Of a stretch of DNA of 21,025 nucleotides, positions 2,414 through 18,271 are shown one piece after another. A model generated the notes under the pieces. It did not search any database, had not been told where the DNA came from, and saw nothing but the letters and a program-made list of their open reading frames with translations. Within the stretch, counting starts at the first letter, position 1. Each line of letters starts with the position of its first letter. The DNA comes from Planctomycetota bacterium (GTDB taxonomy: Bacteria; Planctomycetota; PUPC01; DSUN01). The position numbers and the translations under genes are program-made. The DNA lies in contig VGYW01000104.1 in assembly GCA_016872875.1 (NCBI GenBank), positions 1-21,025 of the forward strand, written 5' to 3'.

Positions 2414-5400
2414 ATGAGCCGCATTGCATGGTTTCTCGTGTGCGCATCCGCTGCCGCGGCGATGGCCAGCGCGGCCGCGGCGGACCTGCCGAGGCCGGGC
2501 GTGGGGGTGTTCTTCAAGGCAGAGGAGGTGGCGGCGCTGCGCGAGAAGGTGAAGCGGCCACCGTGCAACGCGATTTTCGAGCAACTGGCCAAGCGGGCCG
2601 ATGCGGCACTGGCCAAATGGCCCGAGGACAAGGCGAAGCTCCGCTTCGAGCAGATCATCCCCAAGCTGCCCGACATGCAGACCGAGTTCGTGCCCAAGGA
2701 GTTCCTCCCCGACGGCGGCAAGGAGGCGGGCATGGCCCTCGGCAACTACGCCAAGGAGGCCGCCCCCGCCGCCGCATTCGTCTACCTCATCACGGGAGAG
2801 CGGCGATACGCGGACTTCGCGTGGGAGGTCTTCGAGTTGTGCGCGAAGGCTAACCGCTGGGGCTGGTTCCCCTGGAGCGGCTCGCACATGCCCCAAATCC
2901 ACTTCGGCATCCAGAGCCGCGCCCTCATCTTGGTCGCCGATTGCGTGTGGGACGCCCTCACGCCGCAGCAACGCCAGCTCGCCCGCGAGGCCATCGCCGA
3001 CAAGTGCGTCGAGCCCTACTTCCGCATCGTCCTCCACACCCCAGGCATGGGCCTCTTCCACCTGCGGTCGCGCAACCAGGGCAGCAACGCCCTCGCCGCC
3101 GCGCTTATTGGGAGCATTTTTGTGGGCGGGACGTCCCCGTCCCGCGATGCTGTGGGCGGGATGTCCCCATCCCGCGATACGCGGCGTGGGGACACGCCGC
3201 CCACAACAGGGGACACGCCGCCCATTGCCGAAAACCGCATCTGGTTCAACAGCCTGCTCCAGACCTTTCACTGGGCGATCACCCACGACATCGGCTGGAT
3301 GGGCCAGAACCTCGAGAGCGGCCTCGGCGGATACTGGTCGGTCTCGATGCAGAACCTCTACACTGCCGCCGCCGCGCTCTGGAACGTGCGCGGCGTTGAC
3401 CTCCGCCCACACCCAGGCTTCGACCAGGCCACCTACTACCCCATCATCCACGAGACCACCGTCCCCGCCGTCAACCACTTCACCGATCCGGTTGACCCGG
3501 CAGCCAAGGGGCTGCCAGGCATCATCTCGGGCAAGCCGATCGAGCTGCCCCACGGCGGCCGCTGCGGCGCCTGGTGGCTCGACTACGCCGCGAAGTTCCC
3601 CGACTCCCCCGCCCATTACTTCATCCGCAAGGAAATGGTCGCCCCCGACCGCCTGACCGTGGCCGACGCCCATCAGGGCGCGCTCGGCCAGGTGCTCGGC
3701 ATCGCCTGGTGGGACGAAAAACTCCTCGCCGACCCAAAGCCCCCCACCAGTCTCACCCAGTTCACCGACCGCATGGCCGGCATCCGCAGCGGCTACGGGC
3801 TGGGCCAGACCTATCTCTACTTCAACGGCGACCTCTTCCTGAGCGCGCGGAACGAAATCCTCTGCACCACCTCCGGCATGTCCTGGCACTTCCCCTGGCA
3901 CCAGTACCAGATTTCGGAGACGGGCATCGAGACCGAGGGGGAGCCTTTCGCCCCCAGCATGGTCCTCAAGGAGTCCTACAACGACGAGCGGTTCGCCTAC
4001 TTCCGTGCCGAGAGCGGCTTCAGCAACGTGGCCTACTACCCGCGCCCTGGCCAGCGCGAGAGCCACACCCACTACGAGCGGCGCGAGCGGAGCGTCCTCT
4101 ACGTCCGCGCCGCCGACGGCGCCCCCGACTACTTCGTCTTCTCCGATGTCGTCCGCCATAAGGATGAGCGCCCCCGTTGGCACGCCTGGACCTGGCACCT
4201 GTGGAACCACGCGGAGAACCCGAAGAACTACGGGCGTTTCGTCCCGCTTGGCGACAACGCCGTGCGAGCTGAGAGGCCCAACACCGACCTCTACATCAAG
4301 TTCCTGACCCCTGGCAAGCTTGCCTTCGAGCAGCACGGCGTGCCGGCCCAGCCGTGCGTCTCCTACCAGATGGACCACAATGGACGGATGCTGCGCGCCA
4401 TCGCCGGCGGCTATGAGCCGACTGATGCCAAGCCCGTCACCATCCCGCCCTCCGCGTGGAAGGCCCTTGCCCCTAACCTCCCGAAGGTTCCGAACCTTCG
4501 GGAGGTCAAGCTCGACGACGCCCCCGATGTCCCCGAGTTTCTGGACCTCAGCCCGCCTCCCACCGAGAAGACCGTTACGAGCGAAGTGGTCAAGGGACTG
4601 ACGGGCGGGGTCCGCTACCGGGCCTCCCTCAAGTGCAAGGAGGCCAACTACCGCGTCTACGAGGCCACGGCCTGGGAGGTGGGCTTGGAGCTTCTCGACA
4701 AGGAGGGCAAGGTCATCGCCAAGCCCGAGACGCCCTACGGCCATCCGGACCCGCTCAAGCTCGGCGCGCCCAAGAGCGACATCAAGACCCACGACTGGAC
4801 GGAGACCGTCTCCTACTTCGACGCGCCCGAGGGCGCCGTCGCCTGTCGCGCCAGCTTCCGCGCCGTGGGCAGCGCCCACTACTTCACCCTCGGGGAGCTG
4901 TGGCTGAGCGAGATCAAGCTGCAGCCCGTGGGCAAGCCCAAGCGAAGCCGCGAGGAGCGGTTCACCGCACTCGTGGTTCCGGTCCCCAAAGGACAGGGGG
5001 CTCCGGCCATGAGCTTCGACGAGGCCGGCGTAGTCAACATCCGCACCCGCGCGGGATCGCACAAAGTCTGGGCCTCAGTCACAGGCGGTGGCGTACGGCA
5101 TCTCGTCGCAACGCGGCAAGAGGACGGCACCCAAGAAATCAAAGAAATCACCCGCTTCCCCGACCCCGCGAGGAAGGGCGGTGCGCAAGCCCTCGCCACA
5201 AACTCCGACGCAAATGCGAGGCAGCTTCTCGCCGGGCTGAAGCCGGTCCTCGACCAACTTGCCGCCGAGCGGGATGCGGTGACGAAGCAGGGAAGGAGGA
5301 ACCTCGCCCTAGGCGCAAAGGCCACGGCCTCGGCGACCCGCGACGAGCGCTTCCCGCCCTCGAAGGTGATTGACAACCAGGTGGCCGAATACCCGCTCGA

Positions 5401-5950
5401 TGGGCATCTCGACTACACGCTCGGCATCGTCTGGACCTCCGGCCGCTTCGCAGGCTACGGCTCGGGCAAGGAGTCGCTCCTCGACAACCGCGACTACTTC
5501 CCGCTCTACGTGAAGCCCACCTACTGGCTCCTGCCCGAGGACAAGTTGGGCCACATCGAGTTGGAGCTGAAGGAGCCGGCGGCGGTGGACCTGGTGCGCC
5601 TCTTGAACACCAGCAACGCGGGGCTGAACGATTTCGCGGCCCACGAGTTCCGCGTGGAGCTGCTCGACGCCGACCGCAAGCCGCTCGCGAGCAAGGACGG
5701 CGCGTTCGGGAGAGTCTTCGACCGCCCCTTCCAGCACGCCTTCTTTGCGCCCAAGTGGTTCAGCCGGTATACTCCCTCCTTCGCGGGGATGCTGGAGCCT
5801 GGCCTCACGGTGCCCTTCGGCGACGGGTGGAAAGCGGTTGCCTTCGAGGGCGTCAAAGGCGTCAGATTCGTCCGCGTCGCCATCACCAAGTTCTGGGGCA
5901 TTGGCGGCGGGCTCAACGAAATCCAGGCTTTTGCCGTAGAGGTGCGATGA
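2414..5950 (+). CDS. Secreted heparinase II/III-like protein with C-terminal discoidin-like domain
   Basis: A 1178-residue exported protein. A Sec signal peptide (MSRIAWFLVCASAAAAMASA) ends near residue 23. Residues about 60-470 are rich in paired helices with aromatic motifs (FHWAITHDIGWMGQN, GLGGYWSVSMQNLYTAAAAL), like the alpha/alpha-toroid of alginate lyase and heparinase II/III families. Residues about 480-690 look like the following beta-sandwich (FYxHYERRERSVLY, YFVFSDVVRHKD). Residues from about 963 resemble an F5/8 type C (discoidin) carbohydrate-binding module: NLALGAKATASATRDERFPP then KVIDN. The likely role is polysaccharide lysis outside the cytoplasm; the substrate is not readable and catalytic residues were not assigned. 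Residues 237-271 and about 688-697 come from palindromic repeat inserts. The last 115 codons are duplicated at 7129-7477. The start is fixed by AGGAGG 9 nt upstream. Confidence 0.72.
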   Translation: MSRIAWFLVCASAAAAMASAAAADLPRPGVGVFFKAEEVAALREKVKRPPCNAIFEQLAKRADAALAKWPEDKAKLRFEQIIPKLPDMQTEFVPKEFLPDGGKEAGMALGNYAKEAAPAAAFVYLITGERRYADFAWEVFELCAKANRWGWFPWSGSHMPQIHFGIQSRALILVADCVWDALTPQQRQLAREAIADKCVEPYFRIVLHTPGMGLFHLRSRNQGSNALAAALIGSIFVGGTSPSRDAVGGMSPSRDTRRGDTPPTTGDTPPIAENRIWFNSLLQTFHWAITHDIGWMGQNLESGLGGYWSVSMQNLYTAAAALWNVRGVDLRPHPGFDQATYYPIIHETTVPAVNHFTDPVDPAAKGLPGIISGKPIELPHGGRCGAWWLDYAAKFPDSPAHYFIRKEMVAPDRLTVADAHQGALGQVLGIAWWDEKLLADPKPPTSLTQFTDRMAGIRSGYGLGQTYLYFNGDLFLSARNEILCTTSGMSWHFPWHQYQISETGIETEGEPFAPSMVLKESYNDERFAYFRAESGFSNVAYYPRPGQRESHTHYERRERSVLYVRAADGAPDYFVFSDVVRHKDERPRWHAWTWHLWNHAENPKNYGRFVPLGDNAVRAERPNTDLYIKFLTPGKLAFEQHGVPAQPCVSYQMDHNGRMLRAIAGGYEPTDAKPVTIPPSAWKALAPNLPKVPNLREVKLDDAPDVPEFLDLSPPPTEKTVTSEVVKGLTGGVRYRASLKCKEANYRVYEATAWEVGLELLDKEGKVIAKPETPYGHPDPLKLGAPKSDIKTHDWTETVSYFDAPEGAVACRASFRAVGSAHYFTLGELWLSEIKLQPVGKPKRSREERFTALVVPVPKGQGAPAMSFDEAGVVNIRTRAGSHKVWASVTGGGVRHLVATRQEDGTQEIKEITRFPDPARKGGAQALATNSDANARQLLAGLKPVLDQLAAERDAVTKQGRRNLALGAKATASATRDERFPPSKVIDNQVAEYPLDGHLDYTLGIVWTSGRFAGYGSGKESLLDNRDYFPLYVKPTYWLLPEDKLGHIELELKEPAAVDLVRLLNTSNAGLNDFAAHEFRVELLDADRKPLASKDGAFGRVFDRPFQHAFFAPKWFSRYTPSFAGMLEPGLTVPFGDGWKAVAFEGVKGVRFVRVAITKFWGIGGGLNEIQAFAVEVR
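3122..3226. repeat. Cluster of 24-bp palindromic repeat units inside the heparinase-like gene
   Basis: Two direct units (3122-3145 and 3152-3175), each starting GTGGGCGGGA and ending TCCCGC, have a 30-bp period. An inverted copy follows at 3181-3204 and a partial inverted one at 3208-3226. Each unit is itself self-complementary. The cluster is 105 bp, or 35 codons, and keeps the frame, encoding the low-complexity peptide VGGTSPSRDAVGGMSPSRD and onward. Confidence 0.85.
4477..4505. repeat. Perfect hairpin element inside the heparinase-like gene
   Basis: A 13-bp perfect stem (CCTCCCGAAGGTT at 4477-4489 with its complement at 4493-4505) surrounds a 3-nt loop. It encodes LPKVPNLREV in a linker between the catalytic part and the later domains. 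It has no T-run and is too perfect to arise from coding constraint alone; a repetitive element insertion is likely. Confidence 0.7.
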
Positions 5951-6657: not shown

Positions 6658-7053
6658 ATGTCGAAAGGATTTATTGTAAGACTCCTGCGGATCGCCGAAG
6701 GCTTCTCCCAGGCAGCTCTGGCCGAGAAGCTTGGGGTGTCAGTATCCTATCTTTGCCAGGTCGAGAGGGAGAGGAGAACCCCCGGCCTTCCATTTCTGCG
6801 GGACGTGGCCAAGGTGTTCCACATCCCTCTGGCCCTCTTGGTCTTGGACGAGAGTGATCCGGACTCAGCCCTTTTTGCGGACCTCCAGGGCATCCTTAGC
6901 CGGATCCTCTTGACCCACATCGAGACCTCGAGGCCGGTGAAGAAAGCCCTCCGGCCTGCGCCGAAAAGACGCGAGGCATCACTCACACGAAGCCGATCGG
7001 CCAGGCCCGTCAGCACCGATTCACTGAGCGCTCTGCCGGCCAAAACGTGCTGA
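6658..7053 (+). CDS. Xre-family (HTH_3) transcriptional regulator
   Basis: A 131-residue protein with a classical Cro/C1-type helix-turn-helix at residues about 6-62: RLLRIAEGFSQAALAEKLGV, then SVSYLCQVERERRTPGL, then FLRDVAKVFHIPLALLV. The S-x-x-L-x-x-V-E-x-x-x-R pattern of the recognition helix is intact. The C-terminal 60 residues are Arg/Ser-rich with no known domain. The ATG at 6658 has only a weak AGAAAGAG-like ribosome site. Xre proteins usually bind inverted repeats near their own promoter; candidate sites are at 6112-6163 and 6592-6630. The gene lies between two copies of heparinase-like sequence, in a more AT-rich region, suggesting it arrived by insertion. Its targets are not known. 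Confidence 0.75.
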   Translation: MSKGFIVRLLRIAEGFSQAALAEKLGVSVSYLCQVERERRTPGLPFLRDVAKVFHIPLALLVLDESDPDSALFADLQGILSRILLTHIETSRPVKKALRPAPKRREASLTRSRSARPVSTDSLSALPAKTC

Positions 7054-7112
7054 TCCGGATCATCGGTCTCTGCCTGTGCCGAACCACAAGGACGATGATT
7101 TCCTCTGTGTCG

Positions 7113-7477
7113 GTGCCTCCTCGGCCCTCGTGCGCCTGCTGAACACCAGCAACGCGGGGCTGAACGATTTCGCGGCCCACACCTTCCGCGTCGAGCTGCT
7201 CGACGCCGACCGCAAGCAGTTGGCGGGCAAGGACGGGGCGTTCGGCAAGGTCTTCGACCGCCCCTTCCAGCACGCCTTCTTTGCGCCCAAGTGGTTCAGC
7301 CGCTACACCCCCTCCTTCGCGGGCATGCTGGAGCCTGGCCTCACGGTGCCCTTCGGCGATGGGTGGAAAGCGGTTGCCTTCGAGGGCGTCAAAGGCGTCA
7401 GATTCGTCCGCGTCGCCATCACCAAGTTCTGGGGCATCGGCGGCGGGCTCAACGAGGTCCAGGTCTTCGGGAAGTAG
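7113..7477 (+). pseudogene. Truncated copy of the heparinase-like gene's C-terminal discoidin-like domain
   Basis: From about 7129 the frame reads VRLLNTSNAGLNDFAAHTFR onward to FWGIGGGLNEVQVFGK and matches the last 115 residues of the 2414-5950 product. I counted roughly 25 base differences over about 345 bp by eye, near 93% identity, many at third positions. Everything upstream of the domain is missing. A GTG at 7076 could open a 133-aa ORF, but the first 17 codons are unrelated and no ribosome site is evident. It ends 13 bp before the Asp-box propeller gene. This is either the remnant of a paralogue whose first 90% was deleted with insertion of the regulator island, or a partial duplication. 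It is unlikely to be functional alone, lacking a signal peptide. Confidence 0.8.
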
Positions 7478-7490
7478 AAGGGAGCCGATC

Positions 7491-9677
7491 ATGTGCTTGC
7501 GTTCCCTTGCTGTCCGATCAGTCCGATCAGTCCGATCAGTCCGATCAGTCCGATCAGTCGGATCGGTCGGATCGCTCCTGCTGTCTCTCGCGGCCTTATC
7601 TGTCGCCGCGGTGGCCGCCGAGCAACCGTGGCTGGTGATAGGCATCGGCGGGGGCGGGGGGATGTTCACCCCGGCCGCCTCGCCCCACGACCCCGGCCTC
7701 ATGCTGATGTCGTGCGACATGAGCGGCAGCTACCGCTCGACCGACGGCGGCAAGCACTGGGAGATGATCCACTGGAGCCAGCTCCACTCCTCCCTCAACT
7801 GCCGCCCGCTCTTCACGCCCGACGCCATCTACTGGGTCTGCGGCCCCGAGCTGCGCGTCAGCCGCGATAAGGCGAAGACGTGGAAGCCGGTCATCGAGGG
7901 TAAGGCGCCCTGGACCGGGGCGCCAACCCGCCTTGCCGCCTCGAAGTCCTCGGTCTTCGTCGGCACCGAGGCCGGCCTCTGGCGCTCGGCCGACGGCGGC
8001 AAGACCTGGGCCGAATGCGCCAAGGGCAAATGCTACGCGATCCTGGCTCTTGGCAAGAAGGTGTATGCCTCGGTTGACCTCAAGTATCTCGTCAGCGCCG
8101 ACGATGGGGCGACGTGGGACGAGGTGAAGGTCCCGCTCTTCGACGGCCACGGCTTCCAGGCCCTCGCCGGCGGCGGCTCGCGCCTTTTCGGCGTTGTCTT
8201 CAAGGTGGGCATCCTCAAGTCCGACGATGAGGGGAAGACCTGGACGCTGGCCGACCAGTTCCGCGACTGCAATGACATTTTCATGGCCGCCAACCAGACG
8301 GAGGTCGCCTATGCCGTGCAGGAGGGCAGGCGGGGCGAGCAGGGAGTCTGGCGCACGCGCGACGGCGGCAAGACGTGGGAGAACTGCTTCCGCATGACCG
8401 GCCCGAAGGCCAACGTCGAGCGGTCGTGGGTCCAGACCGAGATTCACTGGGGCTACTACATCACGCCGCTGGGCTTCGGCATCAACCCCGCCGACCCCAA
8501 GGTGGCAATGGTCACGACCCAGGGCGACCTCTATGTCTCGCGCGATGGCGGCGAGAGCTGGCAGCAGGCGATGAACACGCCCGCCGGCAAGCAGCCCGAC
8601 GACGGGCGGCCACGCTTTGCCTCCAACGGCCTGGAGGTCACAAGCTGCTGGGAGTATCTCTTCGACCCCTTCGAGCGGAGCCGCCGCTACATCGCCTACA
8701 CCGACATCGGCTTCGCCCGCTCGCTCGAGGCCGACAAGACCTGGAGCTGGGCCGCCAAGGGCTGCCCCTGGTCCAACACCTTCTACAAGGTCGTCTTCGA
8801 CCCCGCCGTGAAGGGCAAGCTCTACGCCGCCACGAGCAACCGCCACGACATCCCGCACTGGACGCACACCGACGGCAACCGGCCCAACCACGCGGGCGGC
8901 GTGTGCGTGAGCGAGGATGGAGCGCGCACCTGGCGCGTCCTCGGCACAGGCCAGCCAAAGCTCCCCTGCACCTGCATCTGCCTCGACCCGAAGACGAAGC
9001 AGGCGCCGCTCACCTTCTACGCCACCTTCTACGAGGGGGGAGTCTACAAGTCCACCGACACCGGCCAGACCTGGGCCAAGAAGTCCGAGGGCCTCGGCAA
9101 CCCCGGCAACCTCCACGCCTACATGGTCAAGGTGCATCCAAAGACGGGCGATGTCTACTGCTCGATCACTGCCCATCGCCTTGGCGCCCGCGACTTCCCC
9201 GTGCCAGGCGGCCTCTGGAGGTCCACCGATGGCGGCGAGAGCTGGAGCGAGCTCACGAAGACGCTCGGCCTCAAGTGGCCTGGCGGCTTCGCCCTCCACC
9301 CAGACGACCCCAACACCATCTACCTCACCGCGGGCACCGTGCCTGGCGGCCCCCAGGGCGGCGTCTACAAGACGACCGATGGCGGCAAGACCTGGGCGCG
9401 GGCAATCGGCGACGCCGATTTCGCCAAGAGCGCCCCGCCGGGCTACGTCCACTGCTTCTTCGTCAACCTCCATCCCGACAAGCCCGATTGGGTCTACGCC
9501 GGCACCGTCGCCCACGGCCTCTGGCTGAGCCAGGACGCAGGGAAGACCTGGCGGCGCTTCGACGCCATCCCCTTCCGCGCCTGCCAGAACGTCGCCTTCG
9601 ACCCCGAAGACCGCTCCGTCATGTACGTCACTACCTTCGGCGGCGGGGTGTGGAAGGGGCCCGTCACGCCGGAGTGA
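7491..9677 (+). CDS. Secreted BNR/Asp-box beta-propeller protein (sialidase/VPS10/GH74-like)
   Basis: A 728-residue protein beginning at ATG 7491, with GGGAG 6-10 nt upstream. The signal peptide is unusual: its n-region is MCLRSLAV followed by Arg-Ser-Val triplets from a 9-bp tandem repeat, then LLLSLAALSVAAVAA with cleavage likely after AVAA. The mature part has about eleven Asp-box motifs of S/T-x-D-x-G-x-T/S-W type, including STDGGKHW, SADGGKTW, SDDEGKTW, TRDGGKTW, SRDGGESW, STDTGQTW, STDGGESW, TTDGGKTW and SQDAGKTW. They are spread over its length, implying one or two seven-bladed propellers. Asp-boxes stabilise the fold in sialidases, GH74 xyloglucanases, photosystem assembly factors and VPS10 proteins; they do not define activity. 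Its position after heparinase-like sequence hints at a glycan role, which is inference. Confidence 0.78.
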   Translation: MCLRSLAVRSVRSVRSVRSVRSVGSVGSLLLSLAALSVAAVAAEQPWLVIGIGGGGGMFTPAASPHDPGLMLMSCDMSGSYRSTDGGKHWEMIHWSQLHSSLNCRPLFTPDAIYWVCGPELRVSRDKAKTWKPVIEGKAPWTGAPTRLAASKSSVFVGTEAGLWRSADGGKTWAECAKGKCYAILALGKKVYASVDLKYLVSADDGATWDEVKVPLFDGHGFQALAGGGSRLFGVVFKVGILKSDDEGKTWTLADQFRDCNDIFMAANQTEVAYAVQEGRRGEQGVWRTRDGGKTWENCFRMTGPKANVERSWVQTEIHWGYYITPLGFGINPADPKVAMVTTQGDLYVSRDGGESWQQAMNTPAGKQPDDGRPRFASNGLEVTSCWEYLFDPFERSRRYIAYTDIGFARSLEADKTWSWAAKGCPWSNTFYKVVFDPAVKGKLYAATSNRHDIPHWTHTDGNRPNHAGGVCVSEDGARTWRVLGTGQPKLPCTCICLDPKTKQAPLTFYATFYEGGVYKSTDTGQTWAKKSEGLGNPGNLHAYMVKVHPKTGDVYCSITAHRLGARDFPVPGGLWRSTDGGESWSELTKTLGLKWPGGFALHPDDPNTIYLTAGTVPGGPQGGVYKTTDGGKTWARAIGDADFAKSAPPGYVHCFFVNLHPDKPDWVYAGTVAHGLWLSQDAGKTWRRFDAIPFRACQNVAFDPEDRSVMYVTTFGGGVWKGPVTPE
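7513..7575. repeat. 9-bp tandem repeat within the signal-peptide coding sequence
   Basis: Five exact copies of TCCGATCAG (7513-7557) are followed by two variants (TCGGATCGG, TCGGATCGC). The unit is a multiple of three, so copy-number change would add or remove Arg-Ser-Val triplets from the positively charged n-region without a frameshift. Confidence 0.9.
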
Positions 9678-10068: not shown

Positions 10069-10350
10069 CTATCCCACACGCCGCAGCTCCCCCTCTTCCT
10101 TCAGGTATCGCGTGAAGGGGTTGTCTTCGTCGAGGTCCACGAGGTCTAGGGCGCGGTCAAGGAGGTCCGCTGCCCCGCCCATCGCCTCGAAGAAGCGCTC
10201 CGGCGGCAGGCCAGTCACCGCAAGGTCAATGTCGCCCCCCTCGCGCGGCACCCCCTTCGCCGCGGAACCGAACACGTATACCTCCCGTGCCCCCGCCTCT
10301 CGCAGCCTTGCCGCTGCCCGTTCGATCTGGACAGCGAATGCGTCGCTCAT
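10069..10350 (-). CDS. MNT-type minimal nucleotidyltransferase (putative antitoxin of MNT-HEPN type)
   Basis: A 93-residue protein with the minimal nucleotidyltransferase core: VYVFGSAAKGVPREGGDIDL (GS motif then D-x-D), found in MNT/MntA proteins. In characterised MNT-HEPN (MntA-HepT) systems the nucleotidyltransferase AMPylates and silences a HEPN ribonuclease encoded next to it. The ATG at 10350 is preceded by CGGAG 9 nt upstream. No HEPN partner is visible: upstream (10351 onward) is non-coding. Downstream a short frame after the stop reads WSTLREFEAQLAVFLKPPAD, then ends at a TGA; it has no start codon and might be the debris of a partner. The gene is therefore an orphan or half of a broken module. 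The third catalytic Asp is plausibly in the DLVDLDED segment. Confidence 0.75.
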   Translation of the reverse strand: MSDAFAVQIERAAARLREAGAREVYVFGSAAKGVPREGGDIDLAVTGLPPERFFEAMGGAADLLDRALDLVDLDEDNPFTRYLKEEGELRRVG

Positions 10351-10573
10351 CGGGCAATCTCCGAACCGTTGCTAAGCTGCACCAGTGCATTCTGCCGGAA
10401 ACTCCGGCGGCGTCAACTGGGGCAAGCTCAGGGGGTGCAATAGCGGGTCTGCGCGCGAGTGGCACCCTGGTTGACCCACCGGGGCCCACTTGCTTAGAGC
10501 CGACCCACGGTGCCAACTTCTGTCACTGCACCAGTGAACCGAAGGCCCGCCTTGGGGTGAATTGGCCCGGCGA

Positions 10574-10603
10574 TGATCAAACATTCTATAGAATGTTTGA
10601 TCA
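10574..10603. repeat. Palindrome array, site 1
   Basis: Perfect 30-bp palindrome. Each half is TGATCAAACATTCTA or its complement. After a 3-nt bulge on the left it extends with GGCCCGG (10564-10570) against CCGGGCC (10604-10610). Confidence 0.9.
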
Positions 10604-10662
10604 CCGGGCCCGGCACCACACAGCCATGCATCGCCAGACACGGGGCGAGTTCGTGCGTGTGA

Positions 10663-10692
10663 TGTTCAAACATTCTACAGAATGATTGAACA
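10663..10692. repeat. Palindrome array, site 2
   Basis: Imperfect 30-bp palindrome starting TGTTCAAACATTCTA and ending with GATTGAACA. The centre CTACAG and one arm position deviate. Its centre is 89 bp from that of site 1. Confidence 0.85.
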
Positions 10693-10753
10693 GTGGCCCC
10701 AACCTCGAGGTGGCACGCCAGGTCTCCTGTGGCAGTAGGACGGGGGCGGGCAC

Positions 10754-10781
10754 GTTGAGACATTCTATAGAATGTTTCAAC
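10754..10781. repeat. Palindrome array, site 3
   Basis: 28-bp palindrome starting GTTGAGACATTCTA. Compared with the other sites, a C-G arm pair is swapped to G-C (complementarity kept) and one pair becomes G-T. Its centre is 90 bp from that of site 2. Confidence 0.85.
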
Positions 10782-10845
10782 ATCACATCCAACCGCGGCC
10801 AGCCACGAGAGCCGCTCTTTAGCGGTGGGATGCTAGTGGTGGTGG

Positions 10846-10869
10846 TCAAACATTCTATAGAATGTTTGA
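10846..10869. repeat. Palindrome array, site 4
   Basis: Perfect 24-bp palindrome with half-site TCAAACATTCTA. Its centre is 90 bp from that of site 3. No further copy is found at the next expected position. Confidence 0.88.
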
Positions 10870-11129
10870 GTATCCCTCGACACCATGAGCAGGCACGGTC
10901 GCCCAGCTACGGCCGGCGCCGCGTGGAGGCGGCCAATCGTGGCCGTCGCGAGGCGAGCTCGGCGAGGGCGAGCTGCGCTGCGTGAATCCGTTACTGCGCC
11001 CAAGCCCAGAGGGGTGAGCGCGCTGTTTGCCGGGCTTTTCGGGGTTTTGTAAACTCTCTTGTGCGCAGTGGTGCTGGGGGAAGCAGAGGAATCGGGCAAC
11101 CCATGGTCCTGGCGATTGGATGCGACGCG

Positions 11130-13613
11130 ATGAAGCGCAGACGAGGGTTAGCCCTCTGGTGCCTTGTGTCGGCATGCGTCGCCCCCACAGTTGCTCCGGC
11201 GGGGCAGATGGCGCCCCCGCCGATTCCGCAGGACAGGTTCCAGGCCTTGGTGTCGGGGCCGATGCGGGGCGCGGGGGAGATCGTGTTCGCGGTGCGGCAG
11301 CCGGGAAAGGATGGCCACTGGTACGCCAACTTCGGCTATCGCTGCGAGGACGAGGCGGCATACGTCTACGGCGCAATGGGGCGGCTGTGCAAGGCCAATC
11401 TCCTCACCGGCGAGGTGACGACGCTGCTTGAGGACACCGAGGGCGCCGTCCGCGACCCGCAGGTGCACTACGACGCCGAGCGGATCATCTTCTCGTACCG
11501 CAAGGGCGGCGAGAGGTGCTACCACCTCTACGAGGTCCGTGCCGACGGCTCGGGCCTCAGGCAGCTCACCGGCGGCCCCTACGACGACATCGAGCCGACC
11601 TATCTCCCCGACGGCGGCATCATGTTCTGCTCCAGCCGCGCCAACCGCTGGGTGAACTGCTGGGACACGCCCGTGGCCACGCTCTACCGCTGCGACGGGG
11701 ACGGGCGGAACATCCGCCGCCTCTCCGCCAACATCGAGCACGACAACACGCCCTGGCCACTGCCCGACGGCCGCATCCTCCACACCCGCTGGGAATACGT
11801 TGACCGCAACCAGCTCTGGTATCATCATCTCTGGGCGACAAGCCCCGACGGGACGATGCAGACGGTCTACTACGGAAACCTGCTCCCGGGCGGCGTGTTC
11901 ATAGACGCCAAGCCGATTGCGGGCACCAGCAAGGTCGCCCTGATCGACTCCCCCGGCCACGGGGTGATCGAGCATCGGGGCACGGCCGCGACGCTCAGCC
12001 CGGCCTTCGGCCCCGACTGCCGCGAGGCGTTGAGAGCGCTCCCAAATGGCGCGAACTGCCGCGACCCGTATCCCCTTGCGGAGGACTGCATCCTCGCGGC
12101 CCAGGGCACGCGCGTAGTGCTGCTCGATGGGAAGGGAGGCGTCTGGACGCTCTTCGAGCTGCCGAAGCCCCTGGCCGAGAAGGGCGCGGAACTGCACGAG
12201 CCGCGCCCGCTCCTGCGCCGCACGCGGGAGCACATCCTCCCGCCGAGAACGAGCAACGACAGGAGCACGGGAACCGTGCTCCTCGTGAACGCCTATCTTG
12301 GCCGCAACATGGACGGCGTGAAGCCAGGCGCCATCCGCAAGCTCCTTATCCTCGAGCCGCTGGCCAAGCCGGTCAACTTCCTGGGCCTGTTCAATGGCTG
12401 GACGGAGCCGATCACGTTTGGCGGCTCATTCACGCTCGAGCGGGTGCTCGGGACCGTGCCGGTGGAGCCGGACGGCTCGGCGCTCTTCGAGGTCCCCGCT
12501 GGGATCCCCCTATTCGTCGTCGCCTGGGACGAGGCCAACAACTCCGTGAAGCGGATGCAGAGCTTCTTCACGCTGATGCCGGGCGAAACGCTCAGTTGCG
12601 TGGGCTGCCACGAGAGCCGCGCGGCCACCCCGCCCGCTGGCGCGCCCCTTGCGATGGCCCTCCGCTCCGCACCCGCCAGAATCGAGGGCTTCGACGGGCT
12701 GCCCGAGGTCTTCGACTTCCCGCGCGACATCCAGCCGCTCCTCGACCGCCACTGCGTCCGCTGCCACAGCAGCCAGAAACGCGACGGCAAGGTGGTGCTG
12801 GAAGGGGAGAGGAGCGAGACTTTCTCAATCTCTTACGCCGCGCTGACGCTTGCGGGGCAGATTTCCGACGGGCGCAACCGCGAAGGCAACAAGCGGCCCT
12901 ACTCCATCGGCTCCTCCGCCAGCCCACTGCTCAAGAAGGTGAAGGGCGAGCACTACGACGTGAAGGTTTCGCCGCGCGAGGAGCTCACGCTGCGGCTCTG
13001 GATAGAGTGTGGCGCCCCTTACCCCGGCACCTACGCCGCGCTCTGGACAGGCTCGATTGACCTCAAGCAGCGTCCCTGGGACGGGATCGCCGTCTGGCAG
13101 CCGTTCGCCCCTGCGGCCGCGGCCATCGGGAAGCGCTGCCTCGCCTGTCACAGCGAGAAGGCCGAGGGCAACATGCAGCTCCCCATGTCGCCCACCCACT
13201 GGGGGCTGATCGCCGGAACCTACGCACAATCGGAGGAGAAGGAACGGAAGAGGTGCATCTCGGCTCACCTGGCCTACAACCTCACGCGGCCCGAGAGGTC
13301 CGTCATGCTCCTGGCCGCTCTTGCCGCCTCGGCCGGCGGCTACGCCGGCGCGGAGAAGGGCCAGCACCCGGTCGTGTTCAAGGACGCCTCCGACCCCGAC
13401 TACCAGGTGATCCTGGCGGGCATCCGCACCGCACAGAAGGCGCTTGAGGCCAACAAACGCTTCGACATGCCCGGCTTCAGGCCGAACCGCCAATACGTCC
13501 GCGAGATGCAGCGGTTCGGCATCCTGCCCCAGACCCTCGACCCAGCAAGAGACCCCGTGGACCCGTATGAGGCGGACAGGAAGTACTGGGCATCGTTCCG
13601 CGAAAGGAGATGA
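11130..13613 (+). CDS. HzsA-like multihaem c-type cytochrome with PD40 beta-propeller
   Basis: An 827-residue exported protein. From ATG 11130 the signal peptide is MKRRRGLALWCLVSACVAP; an in-frame ATG at 11103 has a somewhat better placed purine stretch but would put nine residues before the basic n-region. PD40/TolB-type propeller repeats follow: VRADGSGLRQLTGGPYDDIE then PTYLPDGGIMFCSSR, and DGDGRNIRRLSANIEHDNTP then WPLPDGRILHTR. The C-terminal half has three haem c sites: CVGCH (residues 490-494), CVRCH (542-546) and CLACH (670-674). This propeller-plus-haem layout matches the hydrazine-synthase alpha-subunit-like family, widespread in non-anammox planctomycetes and verrucomicrobia, where the function is unknown. 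No HzsB/HzsC-like gene is present, so hydrazine synthesis should not be inferred. It abuts the FAD oxidoreductase gene, suggesting periplasmic redox partnership. Confidence 0.8.
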   Translation: MKRRRGLALWCLVSACVAPTVAPAGQMAPPPIPQDRFQALVSGPMRGAGEIVFAVRQPGKDGHWYANFGYRCEDEAAYVYGAMGRLCKANLLTGEVTTLLEDTEGAVRDPQVHYDAERIIFSYRKGGERCYHLYEVRADGSGLRQLTGGPYDDIEPTYLPDGGIMFCSSRANRWVNCWDTPVATLYRCDGDGRNIRRLSANIEHDNTPWPLPDGRILHTRWEYVDRNQLWYHHLWATSPDGTMQTVYYGNLLPGGVFIDAKPIAGTSKVALIDSPGHGVIEHRGTAATLSPAFGPDCREALRALPNGANCRDPYPLAEDCILAAQGTRVVLLDGKGGVWTLFELPKPLAEKGAELHEPRPLLRRTREHILPPRTSNDRSTGTVLLVNAYLGRNMDGVKPGAIRKLLILEPLAKPVNFLGLFNGWTEPITFGGSFTLERVLGTVPVEPDGSALFEVPAGIPLFVVAWDEANNSVKRMQSFFTLMPGETLSCVGCHESRAATPPAGAPLAMALRSAPARIEGFDGLPEVFDFPRDIQPLLDRHCVRCHSSQKRDGKVVLEGERSETFSISYAALTLAGQISDGRNREGNKRPYSIGSSASPLLKKVKGEHYDVKVSPREELTLRLWIECGAPYPGTYAALWTGSIDLKQRPWDGIAVWQPFAPAAAAIGKRCLACHSEKAEGNMQLPMSPTHWGLIAGTYAQSEEKERKRCISAHLAYNLTRPERSVMLLAALAASAGGYAGAEKGQHPVVFKDASDPDYQVILAGIRTAQKALEANKRFDMPGFRPNRQYVREMQRFGILPQTLDPARDPVDPYEADRKYWASFRERR

Positions 13614-16641: not shown

Positions 16642-16821
16642 TCAGCCCCCGCGGCTCTCCACCCAATCCCGCACGGCCAGGAAGCGGTCGAGGGGGGTGG
16701 GGAGGCCGTCGGCGCCGAGCCAGAGGAGGAAGGGGGCACGCCGAAGCCGAGGGGTGAAAGTGCTTGGGATTATGGCCTGCCAGATGGACGGATGGTGAAG
16801 GAACTGCTTTGCATCATTCAT
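16642..16821 (-). pseudogene. Chimeric ORF: 18-codon gene start fused to a duplicated URO-D C-terminus
   Basis: The minus-strand ATG at 16821 overlaps the end of the antitoxin-like gene (ATGAATGA arrangement), a spacing typical of two-gene operons. The first 18 residues (MNDAKQFLHHPSIWQAII) resemble nothing I know. From about 16761 the frame becomes FTPRLRRAPFLLWLGADGLP, then TPLDRFLAVRDWV, essentially the last 38 residues of the URO-D protein at 17147-18271. The 59-aa product is probably meaningless. The fusion implies a second cistron was cut off by recombination with URO-D tail sequence, or that a second URO-D gene has been lost. Confidence 0.65.
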
Positions 16822-17146: not shown

Positions 17147-18271
17147 CTAACCACCCCAGTTCCTCACCCAGTCGCGCACTGCGAGGAAGCGGTCGAGAGG
17201 GGTGGGGAGGCCGTCGGCGCCGAGCCAGAGGAGGAAGGGGGCACGCCGAAGCCGAGGGGTGAAGAGGCGGTCGAGGGCGCGCCAGATTTCCTGCCGCGTG
17301 ACACGCTCTTTCTGAAACACTGCGCCGTCGAAGATGCCGCCGAGGATGATGAGGCGGTCGCCCAGGGCGTCGAGGGCATCCTCGAAGGGCAGGTCGCCCA
17401 CGGGGGGCGGGGTGAGGGCGTTGATGCCGTCGAGGCCGGTCTCGGCGAGCTCGGGCAGGAGGCCCTTGAGGTGGCCGCACATGTGGAGGATGGCCTTCTT
17501 GCCGTGGCGGCGGCAGATGCGGCAGAAGTCGCGGAGCTGGGGGAGGCTGTAGCGGCGGTAGAGCGGCGGGCTGATGAGGGTGGTGCTCGTGTTCTCCACC
17601 GGCATCAGGGCGGGGGCGGGCGAGCGGCGAGCGACGATCTCATACTCCTGCACCCGGCAGGCGTGCATCGCGTCGAGGAGCGCTTCCACCTCAGCGCGAT
17701 GGTCTTGGAGCAGGTAGTAGAAGCTGGCCATGCCCATGTCCATCTCGATGAGCTGCTGGACGGGCGAGGGGTCGAGGGTGGGGATGTAGAGGCCGCTGTC
17801 GCCTATCGCGGCCTCGGCGCGGGCGAAGGAGACGCGGGGCACGGAGGCCCCGCCCACATCAATCTCCTCGTAGTGCGAGGCCGCCCAGAGGCTCCTGAGG
17901 GTGCTAAGCTCGTCGAGGGTTCCCACCGGGTGGAGGATGGGATGGCCGTTTCGGAAGGTGGCGACGAGGGTGCCCCAGGGGGTCTTCTGGGTGCGCACCG
18001 CGAGGCCATCGCTCTCCCTCTTCCACTCGGTTTCGATGGGTGGGGCGACAAGTCGGGCCGGGGAGGGGACGCGAAGCTCGCGTGGCAGCCCGTAGTTGCC
18101 GAACTGGAGGATGTCGCAGCCGATGTGGCGGTAGAAGTCGAGGACGGGCATTTCGCCGATGCGCGGCGGCATGGCCGAGCGGGTGGTGTCATCCACCAGG
18201 GTCGTCCACGCCACGCGGTCGGGGGGGCGACCTGAGAGGATGGTGAGAAGGCGCTGGCGGCCGGTCATCAT
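17147..18271 (-). CDS. Uroporphyrinogen decarboxylase superfamily protein (MtbA-like methyltransferase fold)
   Basis: A 374-residue URO-D superfamily TIM-barrel protein. Seen: MTGRQRLLTILSGRPPDRVA (the standard N-terminal ERxxxxLxGxxPDR motif), VENTSTTLISPPLYRRYSLP, the HMCGHLKGLLPEL segment (near residue 262) whose His-x-Cys-Gly resembles the zinc-binding motif of corrinoid methyltransferases such as MtbA/MtaA, and ILGGIFDGAVF. True HemE lacks the His-x-Cys, so a methyl- or demethylase-type function is more likely than haem synthesis; the substrate is unknown. The start is ATG 18271 or the adjacent ATG 18268; the ribosome site is weak (GGGGCAAG). It is the last gene of a minus-strand set after DegT, separated by 93 bp containing TCGATTGAATC-type repeats. 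Its 3' end is duplicated at 16642-16760. Confidence 0.8.
   Translation of the reverse strand: MMTGRQRLLTILSGRPPDRVAWTTLVDDTTRSAMPPRIGEMPVLDFYRHIGCDILQFGNYGLPRELRVPSPARLVAPPIETEWKRESDGLAVRTQKTPWGTLVATFRNGHPILHPVGTLDELSTLRSLWAASHYEEIDVGGASVPRVSFARAEAAIGDSGLYIPTLDPSPVQQLIEMDMGMASFYYLLQDHRAEVEALLDAMHACRVQEYEIVARRSPAPALMPVENTSTTLISPPLYRRYSLPQLRDFCRICRRHGKKAILHMCGHLKGLLPELAETGLDGINALTPPPVGDLPFEDALDALGDRLIILGGIFDGAVFQKERVTRQEIWRALDRLFTPRLRRAPFLLWLGADGLPTPLDRFLAVRDWVRNWGG

Follow-up and report, generated by a model that had tools for sequence, protein, structure and literature searches.

Four palindromes forming a regular array in a Planctomycetota contig (VGYW01000104.1, of which positions 1 to 21,025 were analyzed as a whole and are here called the window) are probably sites at which a winged-helix regulator binds; such sites would have been copied around the genome, and those in the window brought together by tandem duplication. 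The palindromes appear to belong to a family dispersed in a few Planctomycetota genomes, and in these genomes the family adjoins, accompanies and partly overlaps the gene of a 93-aa winged-helix protein.

The centres that an earlier note had given for the four palindromes (10588.5, 10677.5, 10767.5 and 10857.5) were exact when re-measured in the window. The 16-bp cores (10581-10596, 10670-10685, 10760-10775 and 10850-10865) start 89, 90 and 90 bp apart, and the core ACATTCTATAGAATGT has four window matches with at most three mismatches, against 0.01 expected from 100 shuffles. Palindrome 1 (TGATCAAACATTCTATAGAATGTTTGATCA, 10574..10603) is perfect over 30 bp, and palindromes 2 (TGTTCAAACATTCTACAGAATGATTGAACA, 10663..10692), 3 (GTTGAGACATTCTATAGAATGTTTCAAC, 10754..10781) and 4 (TCAAACATTCTATAGAATGTTTGA, 10846..10869) span 24-30 bp with few mismatches each; no strand is assigned to any of them. 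The motif of the whole family is a palindrome of about 34 bp with the skeleton TTC-N5-TTCT-N2-AGAA-N5-GAA, that is, four TTC/GAA elements spaced by about 8 bp. Palindrome 2 is the only one of the four to match all 14 skeleton positions, the other three each matching 12. Sites 1 and 2 do have outer bases that are self-complementary, and site 3 does have the swap of a C-G pair to G-C together with a G-T pair, as described. The array is neither a CRISPR nor an integron, as the note had held; no Cas domain was found among the 15 window proteins scanned, and the array units are 70-83% alike to the first unit over 40 nt.

When genome contigs were scanned for pairs of cores at a distance of 72-102 bp, 23 stretches were found, and viral contigs gave another five (28 in all); of these only L008, contig VGYV01000055.1 of a Planctomycetota metagenome-assembled genome, has the skeleton at 13 or more of the 14 positions. 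The whole of this genome (VGYV01, hereafter G001) includes 34 matches to CATTCTATAGAATG with at most two mismatches and none to the reversed pattern; this count includes L061, L063 and L064, weak in-gene matches without the outer palindrome that were left out of the site classes, as well as L051 and L052, which show identical site sequences and are possibly one site counted twice. The flanks of the G001 matches reveal the longer palindrome GACGTTCAATCATTCTATAGAATGATTGAACGTC. The exact core was present in two of the 119 genomes around G001, with 21 matches in G001 itself and a single match in the other. A looser pattern was found in ten of the 392 genomes of the phylum, and G198 was the only genome apart from G001 with more than a single site. 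The search around G198 led to a further carrier, G397, whose sites are variants of GACATTCTCACATTCTYRAGAATGTGAGAATGTC. In a set of 301 genomes around G198, the exact skeleton was found in seven, G198 included, five of them having three or more sites. G083 has 28 exact skeleton sites. No exact match to the tight pattern was found in the viral contigs and no winged-helix relative in the viral contigs and plasmids searched, and a phage or plasmid origin was rejected. No description of this palindrome family turned up in the open-access library searched, although one may exist elsewhere.

The winged-helix gene was first noticed inside a four-site cluster of G001 (L056). Homologues were present inside known clusters of G198 (contig C9, three palindromes), G397 (C369, two) and G001 (C749, two), and at new loci in G001 (C15), G083, G396 and G925. 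Skeleton palindromes (at least 12 of 14 positions) stand beside or in the gene at all eight loci where the protein is at least 50% identical and at none of the 19 loci below that level, where four palindrome matches get to 11 of 14. Four of the eight loci (L056, L066, L105 and L115) had been known as palindrome loci; those in G001 C15, G083, G396 and G925 were reached by the protein alone and carry palindromes too. A palindrome scan without any sequence constraint found the TTCT/AGAA pattern common to all seven loci then known. At each of the eight loci a palindrome lies upstream of the gene, 55-196 nt before the protein match, the distance being 55-91 nt at six loci and 160 and 196 nt at the other two.

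Among the 301 genomes the protein was found in ten at E ≤ 1e-10 and in five at 50% identity or more. Four of these five also belong to the five genomes with at least three exact skeleton sites (Fisher p-value 7.4e-8, or 3.1e-6 when all ten protein-bearing genomes are counted), in a test that is not fully independent, as the set was drawn around G198, two of the four overlaps are the known carriers G198 and G397, and the cut-offs were picked afterwards. The three G001 paralogues each have their own palindrome variant, CATTCTATAGAATG at C710, ACGTTCTTAAGAACGT at C15 and CATTCTCGAGAATG at C749. CATTCTCGAGAATG occurs also at the G083 locus, and the dispersed G083 copies read AATGTTCTTAAGAACATT. 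As far as these sequences go, the palindrome is changing along with the protein.

Gene and palindrome can also overlap. In five of the eight genes the stop codon comes exactly 13 nt after the centre of a palindrome, which encodes the ending [IV]LxFLR[TMK]LE-stop, while the three genes without a 3'-end palindrome have other peptides there (FLGTLD, MLANMP and FLATLK). The ending FLRxLE is present in 61 of the 120 listed homologues (of 254), in which x is T in 24, I in 19, K in nine, M in eight and A in one; all 61 have I or V at position -9. Chemically, T, I, K and M have little in common, yet their codons all start with A, as required by TTCTTAAGAA after AGA, which suggests from the protein letters that in the FLRxLE group the palindrome rather than the peptide is conserved.

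The protein matches HTH_20 and HTH_27 of Pfam, and in a profile comparison its best matches of known structure are ArsR regulators such as HlyU (best E 6e-11). The structure model (predicted local distance difference test 90.6) has a winged-helix fold, with matches to PadR, MarR, AspA and CzrA at Z 11.6-13.1. Regulators of the ArsR/SmtB and PadR types include autoregulated winged-helix proteins with palindromic operators, and the present protein is like them in its fold, its size and the palindrome adjoining its gene. It is unlike them in having dozens of sites, convergent gaps included, a site at the 3' end and a site of four elements over about 34 bp, as well as in scoring just under the cut-off of the ArsR/SmtB metalloregulators (NCBIfam NF033788), which none of six family members reached (best 53.9 of 55 bits).

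By the test that the note itself had set, the regular spacing of the window array is a local matter. The intervals, 59, 60 and 60 nt when the palindromes are fixed at 30 bp, had been taken to be unrelated, and this needs correcting. When the four units of about 90 bp (10544..10902, no strand) are set in register, their flanks are identical at 142 of 348 positions (41%); out of register the mean is 30%, with an sd of 2.6 points, and none of 2402 shifted arrangements equalled the in-register value. The similarity is faint, and gapped alignments of single unit pairs were mostly not significant. In other clusters the spacings are 66, 76, 111, 127, 138, 153, 269, 276, 326 and 390 bp, to which weaker sites would add 59, 61, 65 and 92 bp, and elsewhere the copies are single. 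A 90-bp phase is thus not a general feature and a function of it was rejected; of the phased operator array considered in the note, the operator-like sites stand and the phase does not. Local tandem duplication makes such clusters, since several of those in G001 share flanks well past the palindrome: L046 over 78 nt at 99% identity, L048 over 121 nt at 72% and L055 over 91 nt at 78%. Flanks are also shared at L054 and by that pair of L056 sites which is 111 bp apart. Sharing was not clear at L045, L105 and the other L056 pairs. The window array looks like an old, probable tandem duplication of a unit of about 90 bp in which the spacers have become nearly randomized and the palindromes have been kept, and such decay of the spacers alone points to constraint on the palindromes.

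Were base pairing selected, the two arms of a site would be expected to co-vary within a class, and their agreement was compared with that of randomly re-paired half-sites. The note had favoured a selected hairpin over a site that is only bound by protein, and an array of structured RNAs or of single-stranded DNA hairpins selected for base pairing would fit the folding of the 321-nt array, at -144.8 versus -103.7 kcal/mol for shuffled sequences (z -8.2), although this is expected of any set of palindromes. Arm agreement was also above expectation over all 32 G001 sites (449 vs 405.9) and over all 52 sites (747 vs 700.4), a set in which two identical sites were merged and in which the invariance of the core is partly by construction, the sites having been chosen by the ATTCT/AGAAT core. 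The excess over the 32 sites is probably due to the mixing of classes. Within the 19 G001 sites of class A, those with the exact ATTCTATAGAAT core, agreement at positions -17 to -8 was 133 against 131.4 expected (p-value 0.39), so that the arms vary independently within one class, and neither the nine G198 sites (p-value 0.27) nor the seven G397 sites (p-value 0.79) showed an excess, in samples that are small and have little power; the arms hardly vary over much of their length, which limits the power. The window has no tRNA and no Rfam match at the gathering threshold, and an RNA family was rejected as the identity of the array. With no covariation of the arms within a class, pairing in RNA or single-stranded DNA is not supported and we consider this explanation very improbable. 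Recognition by a protein fits better, because TTCT/AGAA is shared across classes and was seen without sequence constraint.

In G001, 28 of the 34 sites are intergenic in a genome with 81% coding DNA (binomial 2.5e-15), and the sites occupy gaps of every orientation, convergent included; these intergenic and orientation counts are rough, as the home-made gene caller misses short genes. The six in-gene sites comprise three without the outer palindrome and three with it (L065, L067 and L069). Elsewhere, in the stretches fetched, the intergenic sites were seven of ten in G198, six of ten in G083 (nine of its 28 exact sites, namely those with a known place, and one near-match), all five in G915 and all three in G925, and the winged-helix gene's 3' end accounts for one in-gene site in G083, one in G198 and one of the three in G925. 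In G915, a 235-aa gene that matches nothing in Pfam has a palindrome on either side (L200, 4910-5789). One G083 copy lies within an MnmE-like GTPase gene (L197, 5341), where it encodes HSNVLENIRIT in a variable loop that is at least 11 residues shorter in ten of 14 aligned homologues (of 120 listed) and shorter by 5-7 in the other four, which suggests an insertion of the palindrome into this gene. An open reading frame of G083 that carries a palindrome (L192) had no scoring homologues. The flanks of the G198 cluster on C9 have homologous blocks in G396 and other genomes at about 75% identity or less, and the gap between them was judged not alignable.

Repetitive extragenic palindromes (REPs) and the REP-associated tyrosine transposases (RAYTs) form GTAG and CGTC superfamilies, with REPs inside genes known and untagged families existing (PMC3733652). 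A REP-like origin would mean that the 34-bp element has been copied by an unknown or borrowed transposase, the winged-helix protein being a passenger or the control factor of an autonomous palindrome-gene-palindrome version, and we regard it as rather unlikely. As far as REPs and RAYTs are described in the parts of PMC3733652 drawn on here, the likeness covers length (20-40 bp), a dispersed, mostly intergenic and clustered occurrence in many copies (34 in G001, 28 in G083), some copies in genes, and a partner gene flanked by copies as in a REPtron. Such an origin would agree with the G198 copies matching the query elsewhere over the palindrome only (32-45 bp), with the patchy presence of the exact core and skeleton among genomes, with the G083 copy in the MnmE-like loop and with site information far above what recognition needs. 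The present family differs from the same description in that the partner is a winged-helix protein and not a Y1 tyrosine transposase, that the arms are of about 17 bp without an unpaired tag by a short stem, and that in five of eight genes a copy forms the last codons. The unpaired GTAG or CGTC tag is absent; the sites end GAYRTTC/GAAYRTC, CGTC or TGTC is frequent but paired, and no conserved bases follow. Furthermore, Y1_Tnp was the one transposase family examined, and none of its 36 loci in the three carrier genomes G001, G198 and G397 lies less than about 1.5 kb from a palindrome; mobilization by a RAYT was rejected. Of the transposase-mobilized REP-like family proposed in the note, the dispersed and mostly intergenic occurrence was thus confirmed and the adjoining REP-type transposase was not. 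The class-specific matching of palindromes to the protein and the keeping of palindromes while spacers decay argue for recognition instead. Also the palindromic elements of Rickettsia (RPE) lie inside genes, but the same parts of PMC3733652 mention no cognate DNA-binding gene for them.

A winged-helix protein, AspA, binds the centromere of plasmid pNOB8, and the palindromes might likewise be chromosome-organizing or partition (parS-like) sites bound by the present protein. Both proteins are small with a similar fold, and AspA DNA complexes are named in PDB titles. The fold cannot separate a partition protein from ordinary regulators, however, as the scores are alike. The sites of the present family are many, dispersed and on chromosomal contigs, unlike those of AspA, and no partition partner was found beside the winged-helix genes at L056, L066, L105 and L115, the four of the eight loci scanned. 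Such a role appears highly unlikely.

Several observations weigh against a winged-helix regulator binding these palindromes. The window has no such gene (best tblastn E 0.019), so that a partner has to be assumed from relatives. Five exact palindromes are present in G915, where no such protein was found at E ≤ 1e-10, which may reflect another partner or an assembly gap, and G396 has the protein with no exact skeleton match and only one site of 13 of 14. Genes adjoining the sites share no function among the 58 proteins tallied, in a tally that took sites with at least 11 of 14 pairs and thereby lacks the neighbours of L051, L052, L057, L058 and L068. Sites between convergent genes (L044, L048, L058, L110, L196 and L199) are odd for a promoter operator. 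The sites carry about 50 bits of information where 17-20 bits would suffice to single them out, though the figure is biased upward by the selection of good sites. Finally, about 20 of the 120 listed homologues end in FCKRLQ or FCKKLQ, which do not fit the palindrome.

With a regulator as the binding partner, a homodimer of the 93-aa ArsR/PadR-like protein would bind each site of about 34 bp as double-stranded DNA, its gene presumably lying elsewhere in the genome of the window organism. The protein would probably repress the gene that encodes it, acting at a site that lies about 55-90 bp upstream and in many cases has a partner in the 3'-end codons, and the dispersed copies would be occupied too, probably with a wider regulatory effect. 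The copies would have spread by duplication, the window cluster through a unit of about 90 bp duplicated in tandem with its palindromes kept and its spacers decayed.

The gap that holds the array is 779 bp long and is bounded by a nucleotidyltransferase-domain gene on the minus strand (10069..10350; MntA-like but under the NCBIfam cut-off) and by a gene on the plus strand whose protein has a hydrazine-synthase-alpha-like middle domain (11130..13613); both are given as context only. Apart from the array, the window includes a partial duplicate (7076-7477) of the C-terminal part of the protein encoded at 2414-5950, with a shared LLNTSNAGLNDFAAH...GIGGGLNE stretch, placed after an HTH_3 gene (6658-7053). 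The 2414-5950 gene has a 30-bp repeat in 1.9 copies (3121-3178), and a GTCCGATCA tandem repeat of 6.9 copies (7512-7573) is present at the start of a BNR/sortilin-like gene. A short copy of the C-terminus of a uroporphyrinogen-decarboxylase-like protein (17147-18271) was found on the minus strand at 16642-16821 (TPRLRRAPFLLWLGADGLPTPLDRFLAVRDWV).

The scan for paired cores also detected other repeated palindromes. Helicobacter saguini accounts for 14 of the 23 stretches of the paired ATTCTAYAGAAT scan (L001, L005, L009-L011, L013, L014, L016 and L018-L023), where the sites are many copies of a different short palindrome, AGATTCTATAGAATCT. In Bifidobacterium saguinibicoloris, five TTCTATAGAA sites follow one another at 99-102 bp without the longer skeleton (L012, 1928-2343), and four stretches of a Cloacimonadota metagenome-assembled genome (L002, L004, L015 and L017) have TACATTCTGTAGAAT pairs 75-78 bp apart.

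We tentatively suggest, as a possibility and not as the expected outcome, that the regulator gene with an operator at both ends is a self-spreading unit whose operator multiplies as a miniature element, even into coding sequence, and so makes new sites for the protein, the two co-diverging in paralogues and lineages; this would be a REP-like system with a regulator in the place of the transposase. The FLRxLE ending is kept in a homologue named Patescibacteria (P0071) and absent from two named Paceibacterota and Kaiserbacteria (P0045 and P0111), and judging from such endings the unit may extend beyond Planctomycetota. Location, co-occurrence and overlap give an unexplained dispersed family of palindromes a specific candidate partner protein, and at the 3' end of the gene a constraint at the DNA level seems to fix the last residues of that protein. 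If the binding is true, one could ask directly how an operator multiplies within a genome and which of the two, host or element, benefits from this.
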